A stretch of 40,370 nt of DNA from positions 1 through 40,370 of the IMG/VR virus record IMGVR_UViG_3300027971_000095, one strand, 5' to 3'. The notes below the pieces were generated by a model that made no database searches, was not told the DNA's origin, and saw only the letters and a list, made by a program, of their open reading frames with translations. How positions within the stretch are numbered: the stretch's first letter is position 1; each line of letters starts with the position of its first letter. Positions 14,585 through 38,992 of the stretch are shown here, piece after piece. Origin of the DNA: a virus. A program made the translations under genes and the position numbers.

Positions 14585-15986
14585 TGATCGGGGTTGTTTG
14601 TTGTATTTCTACGGGTGCATACCCTAATATTTCTCTTTTTTCATTTAATGAAAGATTCTCTTCTACTTTAATTTCACCCATAAAAGACACGGGTAAAGTA
14701 TTTGAAATACCAAAAGATACGTCTGTGAATGCTGAATTATAAAGCCCTATTTCTTTTAAGAAAGGGTTAATAATCTTTGAAAGCATTAAATTTTGGCGTG
14801 GCTTAATAACCGTGTTTTGCAAGTATTCCATTTCTTGCCTTATCTGCTGATTGCTTCCAAGTTGTCCCGAAGTAGCAAAACCAGCTAAAGACTTTGACCA
14901 ACGATTAGCAACTACAATGGCTGAGGCTGCAAGGTTTTGAAGGTTTAAAAATTCGCCTTCGCTTTCTTTTGAGGTAGGTATAAAATTAGCCTTTAATTTT
15001 TCATCTCGTAAAACTTGGACAAATAACTTGTGATTGTTTCCCATTCCTGTAAACTTTGACTCAATGCCTTCAACAAGGCTTTTAGCCTCAACCGATGTCA
15101 TTGAACCAAAGAATTGTAAAATTCCCGAAGGCATAAAGCCATTTTCAAACTTACTTGTATTAAATCTTTGAATCCTGTATTCAATCTCAGCCCACATTTT
15201 CGCTCCAATCCACTCAGGTAAGCCAAAGTAAAAATAACCCGCCGCATATTGTTTGACGTGGATAATTGAACGCTCTGTTCCGTCTTCTAATTTCTTAAAC
15301 TCAGGGTAAATTGGTATTTCTCTAAAACCTTCCCTTTCATAATAAGTTCCCTCTGTTGTCAACGGTACTTCTTCCCAGTTGTCGTAAATGCCAACAGAAC
15401 GTATAATTTGGTCTGCCTCGGCTTTCCTTATGCCAATGTTATAAACAGGCACATGATAAATGTAAGTGAAAGGCTGAGAACCAACCTTTCCCCGTACAAT
15501 TTCTGCAAAGCAATTTCCAAAAGCATCGTAATCAAAAGCCAATGAACCAAGTACCTCTTGCAAATTTTGTGCGTGCAAGTTAACTTGTCCAATAACTTCT
15601 TCAATCTCATTTAAAGAATCGTCGGTTATTACCTCACCCTTCATTGAGGTTGTAAGTAAAGTATTAGATTTTCCTTTCATCGGGATAAAGCCATCACCGA
15701 CAACCATGTTTACTTTGTCCTCAATAATTCGCCTGAGGGTTGGGGAATTGTTTACAATGGCAATAAGACTCTTTAAAAAGTCGTCTTTCTGGGTAAAGAA
15801 TCTAACCCACTTTGCCCCAGTGAAATCAAGCCTTTCTCTGGAAGGTTCATTAAAAATATCCTCTTGCACTAACATAGTGTTTGAGGTATCCAAAGTTACC
15901 GAAGCCAATAAAGGGCTATTGTTTCTTTTTAAATTTCTGTTAGCCCTGTTTGGTACTGCTTGAATCGTCTTCTTTATTTGACTCAT
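14559..15986 (-). CDS. phage portal protein
   Basis: I recognise a portal by size and sequence pattern: an early KWVRFFTQKDDFLKSLIAIVNNSPTL region, a middle with YHVPVYNIGIRKAEADQIIRSV, and a C-terminal stem/crown region with ATSGQLGSNQQIRQEMEYLQN. The portal is the dodecameric ring through which DNA enters the head and to which terminase docks. I choose the ATG at 15986 (MSQIKKTIQ), giving 475 residues; an ATG at 16043 would overlap the upstream gene by 104 bases. It lies downstream of the capsid gene, not between terminase and protease as usual. Confidence 0.85.
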   Translation of the reverse strand: MSQIKKTIQAVPNRANRNLKRNNSPLLASVTLDTSNTMLVQEDIFNEPSRERLDFTGAKWVRFFTQKDDFLKSLIAIVNNSPTLRRIIEDKVNMVVGDGFIPMKGKSNTLLTTSMKGEVITDDSLNEIEEVIGQVNLHAQNLQEVLGSLAFDYDAFGNCFAEIVRGKVGSQPFTYIYHVPVYNIGIRKAEADQIIRSVGIYDNWEEVPLTTEGTYYEREGFREIPIYPEFKKLEDGTERSIIHVKQYAAGYFYFGLPEWIGAKMWAEIEYRIQRFNTSKFENGFMPSGILQFFGSMTSVEAKSLVEGIESKFTGMGNNHKLFVQVLRDEKLKANFIPTSKESEGEFLNLQNLAASAIVVANRWSKSLAGFATSGQLGSNQQIRQEMEYLQNTVIKPRQNLMLSKIINPFLKEIGLYNSAFTDVSFGISNTLPVSFMGEIKVEENLSLNEKREILGYAPVEIQQTTPINEPINTTE

Positions 15987-16174: not shown

Positions 16175-16723
16175 TTAGTCAAGTGCATTCATAACGGTTT
16201 CTCCGTTTACGATAAATCTTGCTTTATTTGTTGTTCTGCAAGTTAACGTTAATGTCTCTTGATTTGAATCAGTAAACAAAGCACCTGATAAACCTTCAGC
16301 ACTTGTTAGCCTAACAGGTCTTTTCTTTGCGCCAATAACCTCAGCACCCCATAACCAATATAAACCCGTGTTTTCAACGTGTACACAAACCAAACCGCAA
16401 GCCTGCCCCGCCATGTCTTGAATTAAGTTTCTCAACTCTTGGTCACGACAGTTAATTATACCAACTAAACTTTGCTCAATCGCAACCGACAAAGTGTCTG
16501 GGTCTTGCGTTACCGTTTCCGTAAATGCTCCCGAATTATTCCTAAATTCCACCTCGTAAAATACTGAGGCAGTTGATGACATTGTAATCGCTGTAACCGC
16601 TGCACTTGAATTAGCAGTAAAACCAGTAACTTGATTCGCATTAGCGATATAAAGTTTACCGATACCGCCCGCGCAAGTTCCATCGACACATTGATTAAGC
16701 CATCCGCTTGTTATTGCACTCAT
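16175..16723 (-). CDS. probable structural protein, unknown
   Basis: The 182-residue product is strand-rich, with an N-terminal cysteine pair (CVDGTC at 12-17) and further cysteines (CRDQE, ACGLVCVHV, CRTTN). It lies just downstream of the capsid gene. Features resemble a tail tube or minor virion subunit (alternating Ser/Thr/Ala strands), but the family is not recognised. The spacing to the capsid gene is only 12 bases, so similar high expression is likely. Confidence 0.5.
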   Translation of the reverse strand: MSAITSGWLNQCVDGTCAGGIGKLYIANANQVTGFTANSSAAVTAITMSSTASVFYEVEFRNNSGAFTETVTQDPDTLSVAIEQSLVGIINCRDQELRNLIQDMAGQACGLVCVHVENTGLYWLWGAEVIGAKKRPVRLTSAEGLSGALFTDSNQETLTLTCRTTNKARFIVNGETVMNALD

Positions 16724-17731: not shown

Positions 17732-18205
17732 TTAAAGGTTTGCGTAAGTAATCGTAGCTGTTGTATTTGTCAACTGTGCTGCCGATTCAACAATATATGA
17801 AAACTCTGTTTTTTCTCCAGCCTTAGCGGTTGCAAAGAAAACCTTCCAATCATTTGCGTCATTTAACGCGGTTGTTGAAATGTTAAATGCTGCCGAAGGC
17901 GCTGATGAAACAAAACTACCGTATACTTCATGACCACTTTCGTCAATCAAATTAAACTTATAATAATTTGAAGCGCTTGTTACTCCGTAAATCGGTGTAA
18001 CTGTAAATCTGTCACCTCCTGAGGCAATATGCCAAGTAAAGGATACAGGAATACGGTCTTCAAATGTATCAACCCCATACAATTTTTCAGCATTTATGCC
18101 GTTAACATTGGCGTAAGGGTTAGTACGATTAAGGCTATTTTGTCCGACGTATGTGTTGGAATCAAGAAAGCCATTTACGTTCTGAGCGGTTGGATTGAAT
18201 GCCAT
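17732..18205 (-). CDS. probable head decoration or minor capsid protein
   Basis: A 157-residue, strand-rich protein between the protease and the capsid genes. The Asn/Thr/Tyr-rich N-terminus (about 1-40) and beta-rich core (SFTWHIASGGDRFTVTPIYG) suggest a capsid-stabilising decoration protein, a common occupant of this slot. No membrane segment or catalytic motif is seen. The ATG overlaps the protease stop by one base (TAATG type), so the two are probably coupled. Decoration role is inference. Confidence 0.45.
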   Translation of the reverse strand: MAFNPTAQNVNGFLDSNTYVGQNSLNRTNPYANVNGINAEKLYGVDTFEDRIPVSFTWHIASGGDRFTVTPIYGVTSASNYYKFNLIDESGHEVYGSFVSSAPSAAFNISTTALNDANDWKVFFATAKAGEKTEFSYIVESAAQLTNTTATITYANL

Positions 18206-20200: not shown

Positions 20201-23122
20201 TTATAAAGTTGCTTTTACTTTTAATTTATTTCCCTCAGCCAAATCCCTTGCAATATCGTCACTAACAACATAGGCTTGTAGCCTGTCAATTCTATTATTT
20301 ATTGCTTCGGTCTTTGCCTCGATTGCTTTTAAATACCCTGACATTCCTGAGTCAATACTCATGCCTTGTATTGGTGCAGAAATCGAAGGTACTATGCCAC
20401 CTTCGGCAAAACCTTTTATTCCAATGCGTCTAAAGGTTGGCGAACCGCCTAATAAACTTTGTTGCCTTTGATTTAATACAACCTCGCCACGTTTAACATA
20501 AGCTAAAACATTATCCCCGTTTGAACGGGTCGGAATATTTTGTTTTTGATTAACCCTTTGCCCAGTTACAACGCCACCTTCAGCAAGGGGTTGAGCTATG
20601 ATTGTAGCGGTTTGTATTCCCGCGAAAACACCAGCGGTTATAGCTGAACCAATAGTAAATGGCGGGCCAGGGGGAACGGCTAAAGCACGGTTGACGGCTA
20701 AAGCACCTTGAATAATTGATTGAGCAATGGCTATTTTCTTTTCAGCCTTAGCCGCTTTTAGTTGAAGTTCTTCGGCTTGCTTTGTTTTTGCGTCAAGTAA
20801 TATTTTTTCTGCCTCAATTTCCTTAAGTAATCTTTTTTTTCTTAATCCGCTTGTTTTTTCTGCTTTCTGTTCAAGTAATGTAATATTTTCTTCAGTCTTT
20901 TGTATTTCCTGATTTAAAATATCAGCGTCTTTTTTAAACCTTGCCTGTTGAATAGTGGAAAAAAGGTCGGTAACTAATGTAGCGGCTTGCAAATATGTTT
21001 CAATTCTTTTAGCTCTTTCTTCTAAATCCTGTTCTTCTTTTTCCTTTTGCTTTTGCCTAAACTCATCTGCATTTTTTGTCACCTCTTTAAAAACCTTTTG
21101 AATATCTTCAACCTCTTTCTTTAATAATTCTGGAGGCTTTGTAGTCAATGGCAATGTGGCAAGTTGTTCGGCGTTTTTTAAATTGTTTAATAAATTACCA
21201 CGAGCCGCATCCGCTAATATTTGATTTTGTTGTTCAACTGCATCTTTGATTTGAATATTGATTGCGTTTAATTTTACAGCTAATTCTTTTTGTGTTCCAG
21301 AACCAACAACGGCGTTAGAAAAAGCCTGTTGTAATTTACCGCGTTCATTTTCTAAAGCAGCGATTGAGCCTTCTGCATATTCTTTTCCTGCCTCTTGACC
21401 GCCTTTGTATGCAACTGTACTTAATTCTTTATTTTGCGTTTTTAATCTTTTTTTCTGTTCTTCGGCGTTTTGCTTTTCAAGTGCAATTCTTTCTTTTTCG
21501 GCTTTCTCAATGGCTAATTTATCCTCTTTGTCAATCTTTGCTTTTTCAGACCTAAATACATTTCTATTAACTTTTAAAGCCTGTGAAATACTTCCAGTTG
21601 TAAAAAAGGTCGTTAAACCAGCACCCATTGCTTTTAAGGTTGCTGGAAATTCATTAGCTAAATCAATTAAACCTCCTAATAAATTATTAAAAAATATCTT
21701 AGCCTTAGATGAAATAATGGTAAATTCTCCACCAAATTTTGTAAATGATTCGTTAAGTTCTGACTGACTTTTTTCTAATTCTAAATTAGTTTGATATAAT
21801 ATTTCTTGTTGCGTCTGGTATTTATTAGTTGACTTTGTTACGTCGTCTGTATTTTTTAATATTTTTTCTAAAGATATAATATAAGCCAATCCAGCGTCCT
21901 CACCAGCCCCACCAAAAACATCTGTAATTACAGTTTGTAATTTATTTCCCGCAATCGAGGTGTCACCCATTTTAGCGCTTACTTTGGATAAAGCCTCAGC
22001 GGTTGTAATTGACCCGTTATTTAAATTATCAAATAATTCCCCTGTAAACTTTTCACCAAATGCTGCATCTAATGCTTCCTTTGATGATTTGGTTTGTTCC
22101 CTAATTCTTAATCCAAACTCTTTAACTACATCTAAACCTTTATCAGAATAAATTCCTTGAGTGGCTGCTGATGTGGCAATAGCTAAATAATCTTTAATAC
22201 TTAATCCAGCGGCTGCAAATTGCGTAGGATATTCTCTTAAATTATCTAAAAATTCACCGTTTGAATCCGCGCCCTTTCTAAATCCAATTTCAATTGAATC
22301 TAATGCCTCGTTAAAACTAATTCCTAATGCTTTACTCGCTGAATTGGCTGCAACCGTAATATCATTAACATCTTTTTTATAAGTTGTTGATATTGCTTTT
22401 GATTGGCTTACAAAGTCACTTAGTACGTTTCCTGTTGCGCCTGTAAAAGTTCCTATTTGATTTGATAACTCTTTTGTTTCTGCAACTGATTCATTTATAC
22501 TTTGAAATATTTCACTTATTCCACTAAATACAGTTAATGCTATTCCAATAGCGCCAAGTGATTTATTAAACGCTCCAGTGGTTGCGCTTAACCCTGTAAT
22601 CCCCTGAGATAAACCACCAATAACACCAGTAACCTGACCTAATGTACCGCCTAATTTTGGGAAAAATTGACCTAATGCTTGAGAATAACCACCAACGTTT
22701 CTTTGAAATTGACCTACATTTGCATCAATTCCCTTTAGTTTTTTATCTAAAGCCCCGATTGATACTAATAAATCCTTTGCCTCCTGACTTGATTCCTCTT
22801 CCGCTGCTGCTAAATCCTTGTATCTTTTTCTTTGGTCGTTTAATTCCTTTGATAACTTTCTATATGCTCCTTCAGCTTTGTCAATGCCAGCTATTTCTTC
22901 TTTTCTTAACTTAACTTGTTCCCGTGTAACATCATTAACTAAGGATTGAGCCGCCTTTAAATCAACCAGCTTTTTTTCAAGTTTTTTAATTTCGTCAACG
23001 TCTGCCGTCTTTTTTAACTCGGCATTTAATTCAGCTATTTGCCTTTTTAATTGCGTTGCCGTTTCAATAGTTCCCGTTAATCCCTCAATCTGAATTTTAA
23101 AACCAATTACCTTTTCAGCCAT
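20201..23122 (-). CDS. tail tape measure protein
   Basis: The longest gene (973 residues). The N-terminus (about 1-130) is a Lys/Glu-rich coiled coil, the middle is Gly/Ala/Ser-rich with hydrophobic helices (about 145-240) and a TP901-like tail-length domain, further coiled coil lies at about 540-790, and the C-terminus has GGVVTGQR and RGEVVLNQRQQSLLGG motifs typical of these proteins. The tape measure sets tail length and is ejected with DNA. At roughly 1.5 angstrom per residue a tail near 145 nm is expected (rule of thumb). It begins where the small gene at 23122 stops. Confidence 0.92.
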   Translation of the reverse strand: MAEKVIGFKIQIEGLTGTIETATQLKRQIAELNAELKKTADVDEIKKLEKKLVDLKAAQSLVNDVTREQVKLRKEEIAGIDKAEGAYRKLSKELNDQRKRYKDLAAAEEESSQEAKDLLVSIGALDKKLKGIDANVGQFQRNVGGYSQALGQFFPKLGGTLGQVTGVIGGLSQGITGLSATTGAFNKSLGAIGIALTVFSGISEIFQSINESVAETKELSNQIGTFTGATGNVLSDFVSQSKAISTTYKKDVNDITVAANSASKALGISFNEALDSIEIGFRKGADSNGEFLDNLREYPTQFAAAGLSIKDYLAIATSAATQGIYSDKGLDVVKEFGLRIREQTKSSKEALDAAFGEKFTGELFDNLNNGSITTAEALSKVSAKMGDTSIAGNKLQTVITDVFGGAGEDAGLAYIISLEKILKNTDDVTKSTNKYQTQQEILYQTNLELEKSQSELNESFTKFGGEFTIISSKAKIFFNNLLGGLIDLANEFPATLKAMGAGLTTFFTTGSISQALKVNRNVFRSEKAKIDKEDKLAIEKAEKERIALEKQNAEEQKKRLKTQNKELSTVAYKGGQEAGKEYAEGSIAALENERGKLQQAFSNAVVGSGTQKELAVKLNAINIQIKDAVEQQNQILADAARGNLLNNLKNAEQLATLPLTTKPPELLKKEVEDIQKVFKEVTKNADEFRQKQKEKEEQDLEERAKRIETYLQAATLVTDLFSTIQQARFKKDADILNQEIQKTEENITLLEQKAEKTSGLRKKRLLKEIEAEKILLDAKTKQAEELQLKAAKAEKKIAIAQSIIQGALAVNRALAVPPGPPFTIGSAITAGVFAGIQTATIIAQPLAEGGVVTGQRVNQKQNIPTRSNGDNVLAYVKRGEVVLNQRQQSLLGGSPTFRRIGIKGFAEGGIVPSISAPIQGMSIDSGMSGYLKAIEAKTEAINNRIDRLQAYVVSDDIARDLAEGNKLKVKATL

Positions 23123-28380: not shown

Positions 28381-30642
28381 TTAACTAAAAGTTACTGTAT
28401 CTAAAACCCCAGCACCAGTAATAGTATATATTTTAAATCCACCAGATATAACTGGAGTTGTTCCTAAAACACCTACACTAAATGTAGCGGTAATTGTATC
28501 TGGTATTTTAATAATTACAACACCGCTTCCACCTGCTCCACCTGTTCGTGTCCCTGTATCAGTACCACCGCCACCACCACCACCGCCTTTTGTATCTGTT
28601 CCCGAACTACCGTTACCATTTACTGCACCATTGCCAGATACTGTATTTACACCAACTCCAGCAGTACCCCATGCACCACCACCACCACCAGCCGCCCTTG
28701 CGACAGATGTCCCTGTTATACTATCAGATGTAGCACCGCCACCATTGCCACCTATTCCAGAACCAAAACCAGCACCACTAGCCCCACCACTTGCATTAAG
28801 TCCAACAGAAGATGAACCGCCACCGCCACCGCCACCGTACCAATAATTACTTGAACCATTTCCACCTATATTTCCTTGTATTGAGGTTAATGCAGTTCCA
28901 CCAGCGGCAACCGCTCCTCCATCTTTTCCACCACCACCACCACCAGACCCACCATTTGAGCCTGTACCAAGTGAAATTGAAGCACCTTTTCCACCGCCAC
29001 CGCCACCTAATGCAGTATTTATAAATACGGAATCACCACCGTTTAATCCATTATTTACTGAACCAGGCGAACCACCGCCACCAACAGTAAGTGTATATAA
29101 TTGTTTATTTATTGTTTGAGTTGTAAATTTGCGATAGCCACCAGCCCCACCGCCACCACCAGCATAAGTACCGCCACCAGCCCCACCACCAGCAACTAAT
29201 AGATAATCTGCAATAAACGTAGGTTGTGTTACATTCAATGTCGCACTCGTCACCGTTGCCGTTCCTGTTACACTTGATGCAATATTGTCAACTGTGGTTA
29301 TTGCCGAAACAGTTGTACCTTGACCTGTTACACTTGCGAACATGGTTGCCGTTCTTAATATAGTTGCATTTGTTACCATTGCAGTGCCATTAACACTTGC
29401 TTTTAATGCAATGCCAAAATTAACCTCTGTACTTGATTCAGCGATTGCGTTGGCACTTGCATCAATGAGCTTTGTAATTATTGCCGTTGCATTTGTTTCA
29501 GCAACGGTTGATGGGCTACTATGTAAATATATTACTTTAGTTGCATTTGCTTCGGTTGTTGCACTTGCATTAACCGATGAATCAATATTTAATGCTAATT
29601 TTAGATTTGCCTCACTAACCGCGAAACCATTTGCAGAACCGCTTAATAACTTGCTTAAGATTATTTGGCTTTGCGTCGTTGCTATTGCGTTGCTTTGAGC
29701 CTCTAATGTTCTTATAACGAATAGTAACCCATTGGTTGTTCCTATCGCTGTGGCGCTTGCTTCGCATAATACTACCCCTTTTGTTGTAACATCTAAGTTA
29801 CTGTTAGTATTTGCATTTGCATTTGATGAACCTGTAATAAATAAAGTAAGGTTTATATTTCCAGATACTTGACCCGTAGCATTTAATTGTCCAATAATAT
29901 TAACCGCTCTTTGAACTTCAGCCTGAGCCGTTGCGCTTGATATTATATTTGCTGATATATTTTTTACCCTTACAATGTCTCCAGATGCTAAAGCGAAAGC
30001 GGTTACATTACTTGAAACCTCTACTATATTTTGCTTACCAACTACAATGATTCCCGTTGCGGTTGCTTTGCATTCAACAAAAGCAGAAACCTTAGTTGAT
30101 AAAAATAAATTACTTTGAGTTGTTCCTGTTGCAATAGCATTACCAACCACTTCGATAATCCTTTGAATCTTTACTTCGCAATTCGTAGGAACTACTAAGT
30201 TAAAATTAATTTGAACGGTCACTAACCTTTGAATGCCAACAAAGGAATCAAAAGTAAATTGAGGTGCCTCAGGAATAAAAAGATAGTTTGGAAGTATTGA
30301 CTGTTTAATAAGATTTAAACGCTGAATAAAAGCCGTTGCATATTGTTGCAACGCTGCCCACTTATCTATCTGTAAAGTGAGATCCGCATCGCCTTCGTTG
30401 TCATAGCCTAATAAATCATCAAAGAATAATGTTACTTGATAAGTATCTTGCTTTCTTATTTGGTCTGAGGCGGTAATCGTTGGTACGGAAAAGAATACCC
30501 GTGGGAATGCGTTTAACTCTTGAAAATCTTCTGTGTTTCCTTGTCGTACACGGTCTGAAGCCCAGCCAAAATTGTAGCTTTTTATCGCCTCAATATCTAT
30601 CGCGGTATCTTTAAAAACATCACTTATTTGCCGTATATTCAT
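28381..30642 (-). CDS. adhesin with tail-completion-like N-terminus, repeat stalk and polyglycine tip
   Basis: The 753-residue protein combines: residues 1-160, a domain like tail completion/terminator proteins (FLQ-type strand pattern, DRVRQGNTEDFQELNAFPRVFF); about 160-475, some 10-14 imperfect repeats of roughly 20 residues with pattern small-N-A-x-A-x(2-4)-A then alternating hydrophobic residues, probably a beta-solenoid stalk; about 480-715, a glycine-rich tip with many GGGGG runs, resembling polyglycine-II sandwich tips of phage adhesins such as S16 gp38. The tip would bind the host surface. The ATG overlaps the upstream -1 frame stop as TAATG. Confidence 0.75.
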   Translation of the reverse strand: MNIRQISDVFKDTAIDIEAIKSYNFGWASDRVRQGNTEDFQELNAFPRVFFSVPTITASDQIRKQDTYQVTLFFDDLLGYDNEGDADLTLQIDKWAALQQYATAFIQRLNLIKQSILPNYLFIPEAPQFTFDSFVGIQRLVTVQINFNLVVPTNCEVKIQRIIEVVGNAIATGTTQSNLFLSTKVSAFVECKATATGIIVVGKQNIVEVSSNVTAFALASGDIVRVKNISANIISSATAQAEVQRAVNIIGQLNATGQVSGNINLTLFITGSSNANANTNSNLDVTTKGVVLCEASATAIGTTNGLLFVIRTLEAQSNAIATTQSQIILSKLLSGSANGFAVSEANLKLALNIDSSVNASATTEANATKVIYLHSSPSTVAETNATAIITKLIDASANAIAESSTEVNFGIALKASVNGTAMVTNATILRTATMFASVTGQGTTVSAITTVDNIASSVTGTATVTSATLNVTQPTFIADYLLVAGGGAGGGTYAGGGGGAGGYRKFTTQTINKQLYTLTVGGGGSPGSVNNGLNGGDSVFINTALGGGGGGKGASISLGTGSNGGSGGGGGGKDGGAVAAGGTALTSIQGNIGGNGSSNYWYGGGGGGGSSSVGLNASGGASGAGFGSGIGGNGGGATSDSITGTSVARAAGGGGGAWGTAGVGVNTVSGNGAVNGNGSSGTDTKGGGGGGGGTDTGTRTGGAGGSGVVIIKIPDTITATFSVGVLGTTPVISGGFKIYTITGAGVLDTVTFS

Positions 30643-30923
30643 TATTTCTTTTGCTTACTTAAGTCCTCAACCATTTTATCCTCAGCCGCTTTGCTTGCAA
30701 GATATTGGAACACTTGATATAATTTTGCTTTTTCTGCTGATTCCATCGGTGTAAATCCTGTTAAATTAAACAATCCAGACTCAGCTACCTTCTTTATTGT
30801 TAAGTACCAACCGTATTTTTCATTTAGGTTATGACTTGCTAATTGAGATTTTCCATCGCCCTTTCCAACATAGAGGTCTGCAAATCTAACATATATTTCT
30901 CGCTTAACTTGGTCAAAAAAAAA
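30642..30923 (-). CDS. -1 frameshift extension of the tail-chaperone-like gene
   Basis: After the T9 run (30915-30923 on the opposite strand as A9) the -1 frame stays open to TAA at 30642-30644. It encodes FFFDQVKREIYVRF and later LNEKYGWYLTIKKVAESG. The frame has no usable start until an ATG 34 codons from the end, while its composition is protein-like and its stop overlaps the ATG of the adhesin gene. This is the layout of G/GT tail chaperones, where a ribosomal slip on a T/A heptamer gives a longer product (about 359 residues here). A homopolymer sequencing error is the alternative explanation. Confidence 0.6.
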   Translation of the reverse strand, partial: FFFDQVKREIYVRFADLYVGKGDGKSQLASHNLNEKYGWYLTIKKVAESGLFNLTGFTPMESAEKAKLYQVFQYLASKAAEDKMVEDLSKQKK

Positions 30924-31720
30924 GCAACCTCATAAGATGTCTGCAAAGACATTTGTAAAAAGTCGACCTTGTTTTGCTCAAAGAGTTCGTCTGAATAATC
31001 TTCGCCCAATGGTTTCAAAAGAACTGCCATTATGTTTAACAATCCCTCAGGGTCACCGTTCTTAACTTGATTCATTGCCTTGTCGTACTGAGCCGCCATT
31101 GTAAATTCAAGGAGTGTGGATTTTTCCATTAACCTTTCTGGAAGGGTATAAACCTTACCGTTAAAATCGTACAGTTGCTTATATTTTGTTTCCGTTGGCG
31201 TGTTAATGGCATTCATTATCTTAGTGTAAATGTAAAAAAGGTATTTTAACTCTAAGCTATCAGCCACCTTGCCAAAGCAAGCATCAAGGGGAATGCCTGT
31301 AAAATAGTTTACAACCTTTGCCATATAAGGGTATCTTACATTTGCCTCCCAGACTTCGTCCATAATTTCAAGGCGTTGGTTTAACTGTTCATCATTGGTT
31401 CGCCATTGAATCATTAATGGTGGAAGAAAACGACGTACATTATCCTTTACCTCTTCCTGTTCCAATGTGTATTCAAGCTTTAAAATAACATACAGTTGTT
31501 CAAAGCCTGTTACCTTAACTTTCAACTTCTTTGCATAAGGTAAAATCTTTTGATAAACCGCGTCCCGATCATTCATGTATTGAATCGCCTCAATTTCAAC
31601 CTTTGGATGCTGCGGCAAAAGGAACTTGGCAAAGTATATGTATTGTTCCAAAGTAATATCCGAAGCCGTCTCAGGGTAATTGTACTTGTTTTGTTTATTT
31701 CCAATATTAAATATTACCAT
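30839..31720 (-). CDS. tail assembly chaperone-like protein (short product)
   Basis: The 293-residue product starts MVIFNIGNKQNKY and is helical. Its sequence and place (two genes after the large terminase, directly before a tail gene) and its overlap with a longer -1 frame match tail assembly chaperones of Bacteroidetes phages, which bind the tape measure during tail building. A run of nine T codes FFL at about codons 267-269 and would be the slip site. The normal neighbour, the tape measure, lies 7.7 kb downstream, which is unusual. The family is not certain from sequence alone. Confidence 0.62.
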   Translation of the reverse strand: MVIFNIGNKQNKYNYPETASDITLEQYIYFAKFLLPQHPKVEIEAIQYMNDRDAVYQKILPYAKKLKVKVTGFEQLYVILKLEYTLEQEEVKDNVRRFLPPLMIQWRTNDEQLNQRLEIMDEVWEANVRYPYMAKVVNYFTGIPLDACFGKVADSLELKYLFYIYTKIMNAINTPTETKYKQLYDFNGKVYTLPERLMEKSTLLEFTMAAQYDKAMNQVKNGDPEGLLNIMAVLLKPLGEDYSDELFEQNKVDFLQMSLQTSYEVAFFLTKLSEKYMLDLQTSMLERAMENLN

Positions 31721-32016
31721 TATTTTCTCCTTGCTTTTTTGGTTACCACGGGAATGTTATCAGCTAATAAATCGCCATTGGTTTCGGTTGTACTTTGTTT
31801 AAAAGGTACTGGTTCCGCTTTATCATGGCTTACCAATGGAAGCGACGGCGGTCGTGACCATTCCCGTTTGATTCCATTGCCTGTTAGCTTAACCGCCTTT
31901 TCAAGGTGCCCACGCATTTGAAGTAAACGTTTTCTTTGCAACGGCTTGTCAATAATTTCTTGCGTAATCTTTTCGATTAAGTCAATAATGATTAACGCCT
32001 TTTCTTTATCTGTCAT
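31720..32016 (-). CDS. small unknown protein after large terminase
   Basis: The 98-residue product is helical at the start (EKALIIIDLIEKITQEIIDKP) and has a basic, Pro-rich, disordered C-terminal half that ends KKARRK. It starts 11 bases after the terminase stop and shares one base with the next gene. It could be a packaging or tail factor, but I see no domain. Confidence 0.55.
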   Translation of the reverse strand: MTDKEKALIIIDLIEKITQEIIDKPLQRKRLLQMRGHLEKAVKLTGNGIKREWSRPPSLPLVSHDKAEPVPFKQSTTETNGDLLADNIPVVTKKARRK

Positions 32017-32027
32017 GTTTGTTTATT

Positions 32028-33257
32028 TTAATTAAATGCAAGTAAATCGCTGCCTTGTGCCAATCGAGAAAATATATATCTAAGGGAATCGCACCCGTGG
32101 TTATCCGCGTCTAAGGGAGTGGAAGACTTTCGGTCGTTCCAAATGTAATTCCGTAACTCATGTTTCAAATTATAAGACTCAGGGGTAACAATGATTTGGT
32201 AATCTAACATTTTCTTAATCCCTTCCACGATTGACCCAGCCCCTTTGTCTGCCTTTTGCACATTCAAGCCCCTTTGTTGCAAAGCCTCAATTAAACGTGG
32301 TTCGCTGGTATCCGCCACTATCATTGCGTTAGGACTAACATAATGATTCATTTGTTCAATGACTGCCTCGTATGAAAGGGATTGTTTATAAATAACTTCT
32401 TCAACATATATTTTCTTTGCCCCTTTGTCAACTGCTACCTTAACCAATGCCAAAGGGTCAGGGTAGAAGCCGAAGTCAAGTCCGTAACCAAAAGGAAGGC
32501 TAATGTCAAAAGCACCCTCAACCCAGTTATCAAATATTACCCCTTGCTTCCTATTTAGCCATTTACCCAAAAACCTATGCGCGTATGCCTCTGGCGACTT
32601 CGTCTTAATCGCCTCAATCTTTGCTATGTAATCAATGCTTAGGTTATTTAAATTATCAAAGTACGTTGTATGTATGTGGGTAATATCGGGGTGTGTACTA
32701 ATTGGTATCATTTGCCCGTCAATTGTTTCCATGCGATGCGACTTTTCAAACCACCGTTTCCATATCCAATGTTCCATGTCCTGAGGGTTCATTACAAGTA
32801 TTACAATGTTTGGGGTGTCAGGCATCCTGATTGATTCGTCGATTGTATCAAAGTCCTTTTCGCTTACAAATTCCTCAGCCTCGTCGACAATGAACACGTT
32901 TAACTTTGGTATCGACTTTAACTTTGCCGTCTGGTTTCCAGAACTTGTCTTGATGCCTGAAAATATTATTTCGCTCCATGTTACTTTGTGGCTTATTTGC
33001 GCGTTGGTCATTTGGAACTCGTCACCGACGCCAAGTAAGTCAATTTTTTCCCTGAACTCAGGAATAACCGATATATTAGCACTTGATAAGGTATAACGTG
33101 TAAAAAGTATCTTCCAGCCTTTGTTAGCTAAAAGCATATTACAAGCCCAAAGTCCCACGGTAAATGACTTAGCCGAACCACGTCCACCAGTTATAAGAAA
33201 GTAACGGGTTTTAGGTTGCCAAAGGGCTTCGTACTTTTCACTAACCTTTATTTGCAT
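32028..33257 (-). CDS. terL: terminase large subunit
   Basis: The 409-residue motor that packages DNA into the prohead. The ATPase has GGRGSAKS at 24-31 (Walker A) and VFIVDEAEE at 121-129 (Walker B plus catalytic Glu). The nuclease domain starts around GLDFGFYPD (D and second acidic residues for metal), continues with a MIVADTSEPRLIEAL strand, and ends near DADNHGCDSLRY. Size is typical. The small terminase starts 17 bases inside its upstream end (overlap 33241-33257). The head-protein genes lie well downstream, an unusual order. Confidence 0.95.
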   Translation of the reverse strand: MQIKVSEKYEALWQPKTRYFLITGGRGSAKSFTVGLWACNMLLANKGWKILFTRYTLSSANISVIPEFREKIDLLGVGDEFQMTNAQISHKVTWSEIIFSGIKTSSGNQTAKLKSIPKLNVFIVDEAEEFVSEKDFDTIDESIRMPDTPNIVILVMNPQDMEHWIWKRWFEKSHRMETIDGQMIPISTHPDITHIHTTYFDNLNNLSIDYIAKIEAIKTKSPEAYAHRFLGKWLNRKQGVIFDNWVEGAFDISLPFGYGLDFGFYPDPLALVKVAVDKGAKKIYVEEVIYKQSLSYEAVIEQMNHYVSPNAMIVADTSEPRLIEALQQRGLNVQKADKGAGSIVEGIKKMLDYQIIVTPESYNLKHELRNYIWNDRKSSTPLDADNHGCDSLRYIFSRLAQGSDLLAFN

Positions 33258-37883: not shown

Positions 37884-38992
37884 TACCAACCTTTTTTTAT
37901 CTGTTCAACAATATATTCCCTATCCTCTTCCGTTACCCACCAGCCAACTGGAAGGCTGGATAACTTTCCAATCACTTGTTCAATGTTTGGTAGTTCTGTT
38001 TTAAACTGCTTTACACATGGGTGTAAATCGTTCCGCTCATGTACCTGAGAAGTCATTACGCCACGGTCTTTCATTGCTCTTTGGAAATTATCCCTATCCT
38101 CAACCAAAATGGAATATATCCAATACGACGAACCCTCGTCAAAATATAAAGGGGTTATAAATTTACTATTTTCATTTAACCACCAATCATAAAACCCAGC
38201 GTTATTTTGGTGTCTTCTAACGTTATCCCCAAATATTTTAAGGTTCTCAATCCCGATGGCGGCGTTGATGTCGTTCATGTGGAATTTATATCCCCAATCG
38301 TTTATCGGTGTTTCGCATCTAAAGTCCTTTCTGTCACCTTCACGGTCAATGCCATACCAACGAAGTAACTTTGCCTTTTTATATTGTTCCTCATTTGGTA
38401 AAATCAACATTCCACCGTCACCCGTGGTAAGGTGTTTTATTGCTTGAAAGGAAAAACAACAGTAATTTCCTGAGTTCCCGACCAACGTACTTTCGTCTTT
38501 AGTGGCTGGGAGTTCGTAATATGAGCCGAAGGCGTGGGCACAATCTTCGATAATATCAAGCCCCGTCAATGATTTTATTTTCTTTACGTCCGCTGCTGCA
38601 CCTCCCCAATGAACAACCATAACGGCGGCAACCAAAGGAGTAACAGATTTAGCGACCGATAAAGGGCAAATGTTTAAAGTGTTCGGCTCAATGTCTGCCC
38701 AAATAATTTCAAACCCAGCGGCAAGTATCGCCCAGTTGGTTGCCGTGCAAGTCAAAGGGGTTGATATAATGTATTTTTTATTTGGGTGTTTATCCTTAAT
38801 CAATCTCAATGCCAATGTTAAGGCTGATGTTCCAGAGTTTACGGTAACAAGGTAGGGATTATTGAAGCTTTGTTTTAATTGGCGTTCAAATTCCATCACT
38901 ACTTCCCCTTGACCGATGAAGCCTGAGGATAAAACTTTGTCCACGGCTTTTGATGCCTCTGGATTCATTGCTACTTTAAATAGTGGTATCAT
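37883..38992 (-). CDS. DegT/DnrJ/EryC1/StrS-family PLP aminotransferase
   Basis: A complete 369-residue enzyme that aminates a keto-sugar nucleotide. Seen in sequence: NSGTSALTLAL (52-62) for the PLP phosphate, EDCAHAFG (149-156) with D150 on the PLP nitrogen, and SFQAIKHLTTGDGG (181-194) with K186 as the PLP-lysine. No sugar dehydratase or other partner for making its substrate is encoded here, so it probably uses a host nucleotide sugar. It overlaps DUF616 by four bases and SSB by the TAATG junction. A diverged partial copy is at 1-320. Confidence 0.92.
   Translation of the reverse strand: MIPLFKVAMNPEASKAVDKVLSSGFIGQGEVVMEFERQLKQSFNNPYLVTVNSGTSALTLALRLIKDKHPNKKYIISTPLTCTATNWAILAAGFEIIWADIEPNTLNICPLSVAKSVTPLVAAVMVVHWGGAAADVKKIKSLTGLDIIEDCAHAFGSYYELPATKDESTLVGNSGNYCCFSFQAIKHLTTGDGGMLILPNEEQYKKAKLLRWYGIDREGDRKDFRCETPINDWGYKFHMNDINAAIGIENLKIFGDNVRRHQNNAGFYDWWLNENSKFITPLYFDEGSSYWIYSILVEDRDNFQRAMKDRGVMTSQVHERNDLHPCVKQFKTELPNIEQVIGKLSSLPVGWWVTEEDREYIVEQIKKGW

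Follow-up and report, generated by a model that had tools for sequence, protein, structure and literature searches.

A conserved run of nine T residues as the probable programmed -1 recoding site of a tail-chaperone-like gene in phages related to those of Bacteroidota

Near the 3′ end of a minus-strand gene in the window, as we call the whole 40,370-nucleotide stretch of viral DNA analysed here, the coding frame meets nine consecutive T residues, and a second frame stays open well beyond the point where the first one ends. The locus thus raises the question of whether one gene is read as two proteins and, if so, which machine slips on the run and what the two proteins do. The elements concerned are as follows.

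30839..31720, minus strand: 0-frame ORF, 293 aa, the short (G-like) product; largely alpha-helical, containing two modules that each combine a beta-hairpin with a helix
30915..30923, minus strand: T9 slip site in the phase GC-T-TTT-TTT-TTG, with two overlapping -1 heptamers, T_TTT_TTT and T_TTT_TTG
30642..30917, minus strand: -1 frame extension, 91 codons and TAA, with the conserved motif YGWYLTIKxxAExGxFN
30839..30914, minus strand: dual-frame stretch, encoding both the C-terminal tail of the 0-frame protein (after TTG) and the first part of the -1 extension

A recount of the letters agreed with a sequence-only reading of this DNA, which had described a 293-residue frame meeting nine T, a -1 slip opening about 90 further codons, and a TAATG junction with the next gene. 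The codons near the end of the 0-frame ORF are GCT TTT TTT TTG ACC, and the run comprises exactly nine T (30923-30915). The -1 frame reads TTT GAC CAA GTT AAG and continues on the minus strand from 30917 to a TAA at 30644-30642, which overlaps the ATG (30642-30640) of the following ORF (28381-30642). Given a shift on T_TTT_TTT, the predicted long (GT-like) product has 359 aa. The same reading had placed no plausible -1 start before the last 34 codons; the first ATG in that frame indeed occurs at about codon 59 of 93, within the last 34-35 codons. The arrangement of an in-phase slippery heptamer near the 3′ end of a short ORF, followed by a -1 extension, is that of G/GT genes (here T_TTT_TTT and 91 codons), and an A or T homopolymer about nine long at a frame junction is that of transcriptional-slippage sites. 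No other A/T run of at least nine occurs in the 40.4-kb window; within its genes, one such run was observed against 3.4 expected from synonymous shuffling, indicating that they are depleted of such runs. No gap in the gene cluster from the terminase large subunit (TerL) to the endolysin is larger than the 196-nt space occupied by the -1 extension. A scan of the window for in-phase heptamers found no other unexplained -1 heptamer with a long extension; those at 37898 and 36278/36275 have long extensions and are ordinary gene overlaps, in which the downstream frames have their own ATG near the start.

We scanned IMG/VR with the 0-frame protein and, separately, with the -1 extension; neither the 0-frame nor the YGWYLT-based scans demanded T at synonymous positions. 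The nearer homologues form two close clades, at 85-94% and about 58% identity, and the distant groups share 27-32% identity in the 0 frame and 43-52% in the extension. All 68 distinct 600-nt contexts of the first set carry exactly nine T in the same phase. The wider scan comprised 94 distinct contexts, from IMG/VR contigs and Nonlabens phage P12024L: 91 have T9 in the same phase, two (P12024L and a 95% relative) have T9 moved by one base, and one has T10. The sequence-only reading had pointed to the length of the run in relatives (eight or ten T rather than nine), to their frames and to the presence of a slippery run as places to look; with nine T in 93 of 94 contexts, the -1 frame open throughout, no fused, uninterrupted frame and no homologue without the run among the 94, its programmed frameshift is strongly supported.

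The lone T10, at 518-527 of locus L231, derives from a G-to-T substitution after the run and leaves the frame relation unchanged. At 48-52% GC, loci L203, L199 and L223 still have the T9 run intact. Counted from the run, the -1 frame is 92-97 codons long in 65 of 66 contexts, the exception being one of 84 codons in a contig of L033. In the tblastn matches of L264, L265 and L270 to the -1 domain, 95 query residues extend over 387 nt, pointing to an insertion of about 30 residues in the extension.

Codon usage across 582 sequence pairs of 70-92% identity distinguishes the parts of the gene. Where the amino acid is the same, the codon is the same as well in 67-77% of cases across most of the 0-frame gene and in 83% in its last block; the share rises to 90-92% where both frames are read and falls to 72-82% over most of the -1-only part, which retains 90-99% amino-acid identity despite its varying codons. 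At the slip codons the figure is 100%, with no synonymous variation. The pattern is that of a -1-only part evolving as a translated protein and of an overlap stretch under dual-coding constraint. Both slip-site Phe codons are TTT in 28 of 28 clusters (clustering at 85% identity); elsewhere in the slip genes, 67% of Phe codons are TTT and about a third are TTC.

These comparisons bear on two simpler accounts of the locus. A homopolymer error in sequencing or assembly, or a decayed gene, could mimic such a junction, as the sequence-only reading had cautioned; homopolymers are error-prone and a single contig could not exclude it. With nine T recurring in contigs from many independent samples and in the record of an isolated phage, and with both frames under selection, the chance of this is negligible. 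Two separate genes, the second expressed by its own initiation or by reinitiation, would match the annotation of P12024L, where the -1 part is called as a gene of its own with an internal start. The conserved -1 part, however, starts at the slip site, and its frame lacks any ATG in 39 of 66 contexts and in most others has one only at codon 56-63; two contexts with an ATG upstream of the slip are the exceptions to a rule that -1 frame ATGs begin at codon 56 or later. Independent initiation therefore does not explain the -1 part, and as it also leaves the invariant slip codons unexplained, we regard it as very improbable. The overlap of the -1 stop with the next ATG, seen in 51 of 66 contexts, is a further point for a shift. 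Programmed -1 recoding at T9 is, on this comparative evidence, as good as proven.

Which machine slips is a separate matter. Known phage G/GT pairs use ribosomal slippage, and the ribosome is probably the agent here as well. The other candidate is RNA polymerase, which would add one U or lose two at T9 in some messages and so give the same two proteins. Several features speak for it: the run is fixed at nine, though a heptamer suffices for the ribosome; the second Phe codon never ends in C, though T_TTT_TTC is also a -1 heptamer; P12024L again has nine T, in a phase that differs by one base; and an A9 run marks a probable G/GT site in Flavobacterium phage 11b. The third frame meets a stop within 3 codons in 24 of 28 clusters, which would dispose of one-base-loss products. 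It also speaks for the polymerase that no downstream stimulatory RNA structure was found when the 70 nt after the run were folded for 18 diverse homologues, their energies being like those of shuffles, with z near 0 in most. A shared upstream Shine-Dalgarno-like enhancer was considered and rejected, as GAGG-type words occur in only some clusters. Nine A or T is moreover a length described for bacterial transcriptional slippage, with cases in Shigella type III genes (PMC5009743). Against this, the eighth and ninth T are coding in both frames (Leu, Phe), so that dual coding alone can hold them, and a T9, whatever its phase, includes an in-phase T_TTT_TTT, which leaves phase without power to discriminate. 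We consider transcriptional slippage possible but doubtful, and ribosomal slippage the probable course.

The role of the proteins has to be sought in the gene neighbourhood, the relevant members of which are listed here.

32028..33257, minus strand: TerL (Terminase_3; Pfam/PHROGs), conserved upstream neighbour
31720..32016, minus strand: 98-aa ORF between the terminase and the slip gene, a conserved neighbour in nearer relatives
28381..30642, minus strand: next gene, 753 aa, with a conserved N-terminal domain of about 165 aa, putatively tail-terminator-like by position
20201..23122, minus strand: tape measure protein (PhageMin_Tail, E 6.8e-13), downstream in the same cassette
16175-16723, beyond the tape measure: candidate tail-tube gene, by sequence character only

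The tape measure, terminase, portal and head protease were assigned via PHROGs and Pfam, and the portal and capsid candidates are located on the far side of the tape measure. By tblastn of the window proteins against 28 loci, we found a conserved order of TerL, (98-aa ORF), slip gene, terminator-like domain, ORFs of 175, 402 and 811 aa, and tape measure. The order holds in relatives down to 30% identity, although not every member was detected in the most distant loci, and the tape measure is in the cassette in nearly all relatives whose sequence extends far enough. The distance of 7.7 kb between slip gene and tape measure given by the sequence-only reading was accurate, as the tape measure starts at 23122 and the interval is about 7.5-7.8 kb. 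In L092 and L164 it is only about 5 kb, so the large distance in the window in part reflects inserted genes and domains. In the 753-aa ORF itself, the N-terminal domain (about 165 aa) is joined to a repetitive region of Ala, Ser and Thr and to a glycine-rich domain (Gly_rich_2); several relatives have a domain of similar size with the next conserved gene immediately behind it.

The usual place of a G/GT gene, although not a strict definition, is between the genes for the major tail protein and the tape measure, normally just before the tape measure gene. In nearly all relatives, four genes or domains intervene between the slip gene and the tape measure. The short G protein is usually about half as long as the 0-frame part found here.

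Searches with the proteins gave little to anchor a function. None of 19 diverse family members had a significant Pfam or PHROG match, there was no significant sequence or fold match in the PDB, and tblastn of five family queries against 50,697 phage records returned no homologue. AlphaFold2 modelled the 0-frame protein with a pLDDT of 80.9, the post-slip tail being of low confidence, as was the -1 domain modelled alone (pLDDT 60). The only confident Foldseek matches of the 0-frame model were to uncharacterised phage proteins, among them one from Nonlabens phage P12024S; the best annotated tail assembly chaperone in BFVD was a weak match at rank 46 (E about 1, probability 0.57). Profile comparison with the tail assembly chaperone annotated in Elizabethkingia phage TCUEAP2 gave no match. 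Another weak lead from the fold search, Flavobacterium phage 6H gp10, was discarded, as T_TTT_TTC is followed at once by a stop in its -1 frame and the profile comparison was negative. Known tail chaperones are mutually divergent, so the missing homology weakens but does not exclude membership of the G/GT group.

Phage frameshifts occur also in capsid and other genes, and the slip gene might accordingly be another structural or assembly gene, for instance for head or neck assembly. Its place directly after the terminase and the 98-aa ORF, not adjoining the tape measure, would suit such a gene, as would the fact that neither fold nor profile comparison tied it to known tail chaperones. What follows it in conserved order is, however, a tail cassette that ends in the tape measure, with the portal and capsid candidates beyond it, and the window offers no other chaperone candidate, whether between TerL and the tape measure or elsewhere. 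A head, neck or other assembly function is thus improbable, and a tail-chaperone role is likely because of the position in the tail cassette and the absence of another candidate. Of the G/GT pair claimed by the sequence-only reading, cassette position, the device itself and exclusion of other candidates make the chaperone role plausible, while known chaperones could be linked to it neither by sequence nor, with confidence, by structure; the gene is tail-chaperone-like in device and cassette, and not in tape-measure adjacency or detectable homology. Overall, a two-protein gene expressed by programmed -1 recoding, with a G/GT-like role, is in our judgement the best explanation and probably the right one.

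Under this preferred explanation, most expression would yield the 293-aa protein, ending after a 25-residue 0-frame tail. A minority of events would shift back one base within T_TTT_TTT(_TTG) and give the 359-aa protein, in which the first 268 residues are shared and a 91-residue C-terminal domain replaces the 25-residue tail. In G/GT systems, the short form binds the tape measure and the long form recruits the tail tube; both are absent from virions, and the short form is in excess. By analogy with lambda G/GT, the common part might bind the tape measure and the -1 domain might recruit the tail-tube protein, with the short form in excess. Comparison shows the site, the two frames and their conservation under purifying selection, the missing independent start and the place in a conserved cassette from TerL to the tape measure; we infer that slippage occurs, as well as its level, the ribosome as its agent and the chaperone role. 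Frameshift efficiencies of 6-7% have been measured for two genes of an HK97-like chaperone cluster (PMC3711429).

The best isolated relatives of the TerL and tape measure of the window are mostly phages of Bacteroidota, which makes a host from this phylum probable; two scans of bacterial genome contigs found no relative of the slip gene. One record, OQ791282.1 (Shigella phage Henu10 by name), has the same match coordinates and identity as Riemerella phage vB_RanS_PT15. It stands among Riemerella phages, and its Shigella host label may be wrong.

The locus adds a protein family that has no Pfam or PHROG model, from highly divergent phages, to the genes with programmed frameshifts, and suggests that a G/GT-like pair can be preserved even when relocated away from the tape measure. 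As gene callers output the short protein alone or a split gene, as in P12024L, the long product is missing from databases. The run held at nine T offers a clean natural case of the ribosome versus RNA polymerase slipping in Bacteroidota phages. An unlikely but far-reaching version is that a widespread, almost wholly uncultured phage lineage makes its chaperone pair through RNA polymerase slippage on T9, from a gene relocated to the front of the tail cassette, and that nine-base homopolymers are perhaps general in Bacteroidota phages.

Compared with lambda G/GT, the window gene is alike in encoding a short and a -1 extended protein, with the slip near the 3′ end and within a tail gene cluster. 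It differs in lying near the terminase, 5-7.7 kb from the tape measure instead of directly upstream, in a short protein about twice as long, in using T9 instead of a minimal heptamer and in having no detectable homology. A conserved frameshift in the tail chaperone genes of long-tailed dsDNA phages was described by Xu, Hendrix and Duda in 2004, as referred to in PMC5009743. Shigella spa13 and mxiE (PMC5009743) similarly have C-terminally extended products, and the spa13 extension overlaps the next gene; unlike the window gene, to which they have no homology, they are bacterial type III secretion genes, with slippage shown at the RNA level.

Flavobacterium phage 11b (L300, NC_006356) is a Bacteroidota phage with a -1 extension across a nine-base homopolymer: A9 at 18173-18181, in-phase A_AAA_AAA, with a 115-codon extension at gp38/gp39. 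Its family is different and a likely tape measure follows directly downstream; gp38/gp39, shortly before the probable tape measure gp40, is likely a canonical G/GT pair unannotated as such. Riemerella phage RAP44 (L298, NC_019490) has A_AAT_TTT on the minus strand (slip 15385) at gp17/gp16, with an 88-codon -1 extension carrying an FGW motif, a site about 2.5 kb before the tape measure that is possibly another unannotated pair.

The homologous device was found in two isolated phages only, the Nonlabens (Persicivirga) phages P12024L and P12024S, the former located through the Foldseek match in its sister phage. Gp40 of P12024L, directly after TerL, carries nine T, and its -1 frame is partly annotated as gp41. 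The extension matches the family extension profile with an hhalign probability of 94 (E 1e-7), and gp40 matches the 0-frame family N-terminal motif more weakly (probability 27, E 6.5e-4). At 15206-15900 of P12024L (L085, JQ823123), gp40 and gp41, annotated as two hypothetical genes, thus appear to be one T9 frameshift gene. In both phages, the 0-frame protein is shorter than that of the window, at 175 aa, the run is shifted one base relative to the frame, and the parts are annotated as separate genes; what they share with the window is a T9 gene after TerL and a homologous -1 domain with the motif GWYxT.
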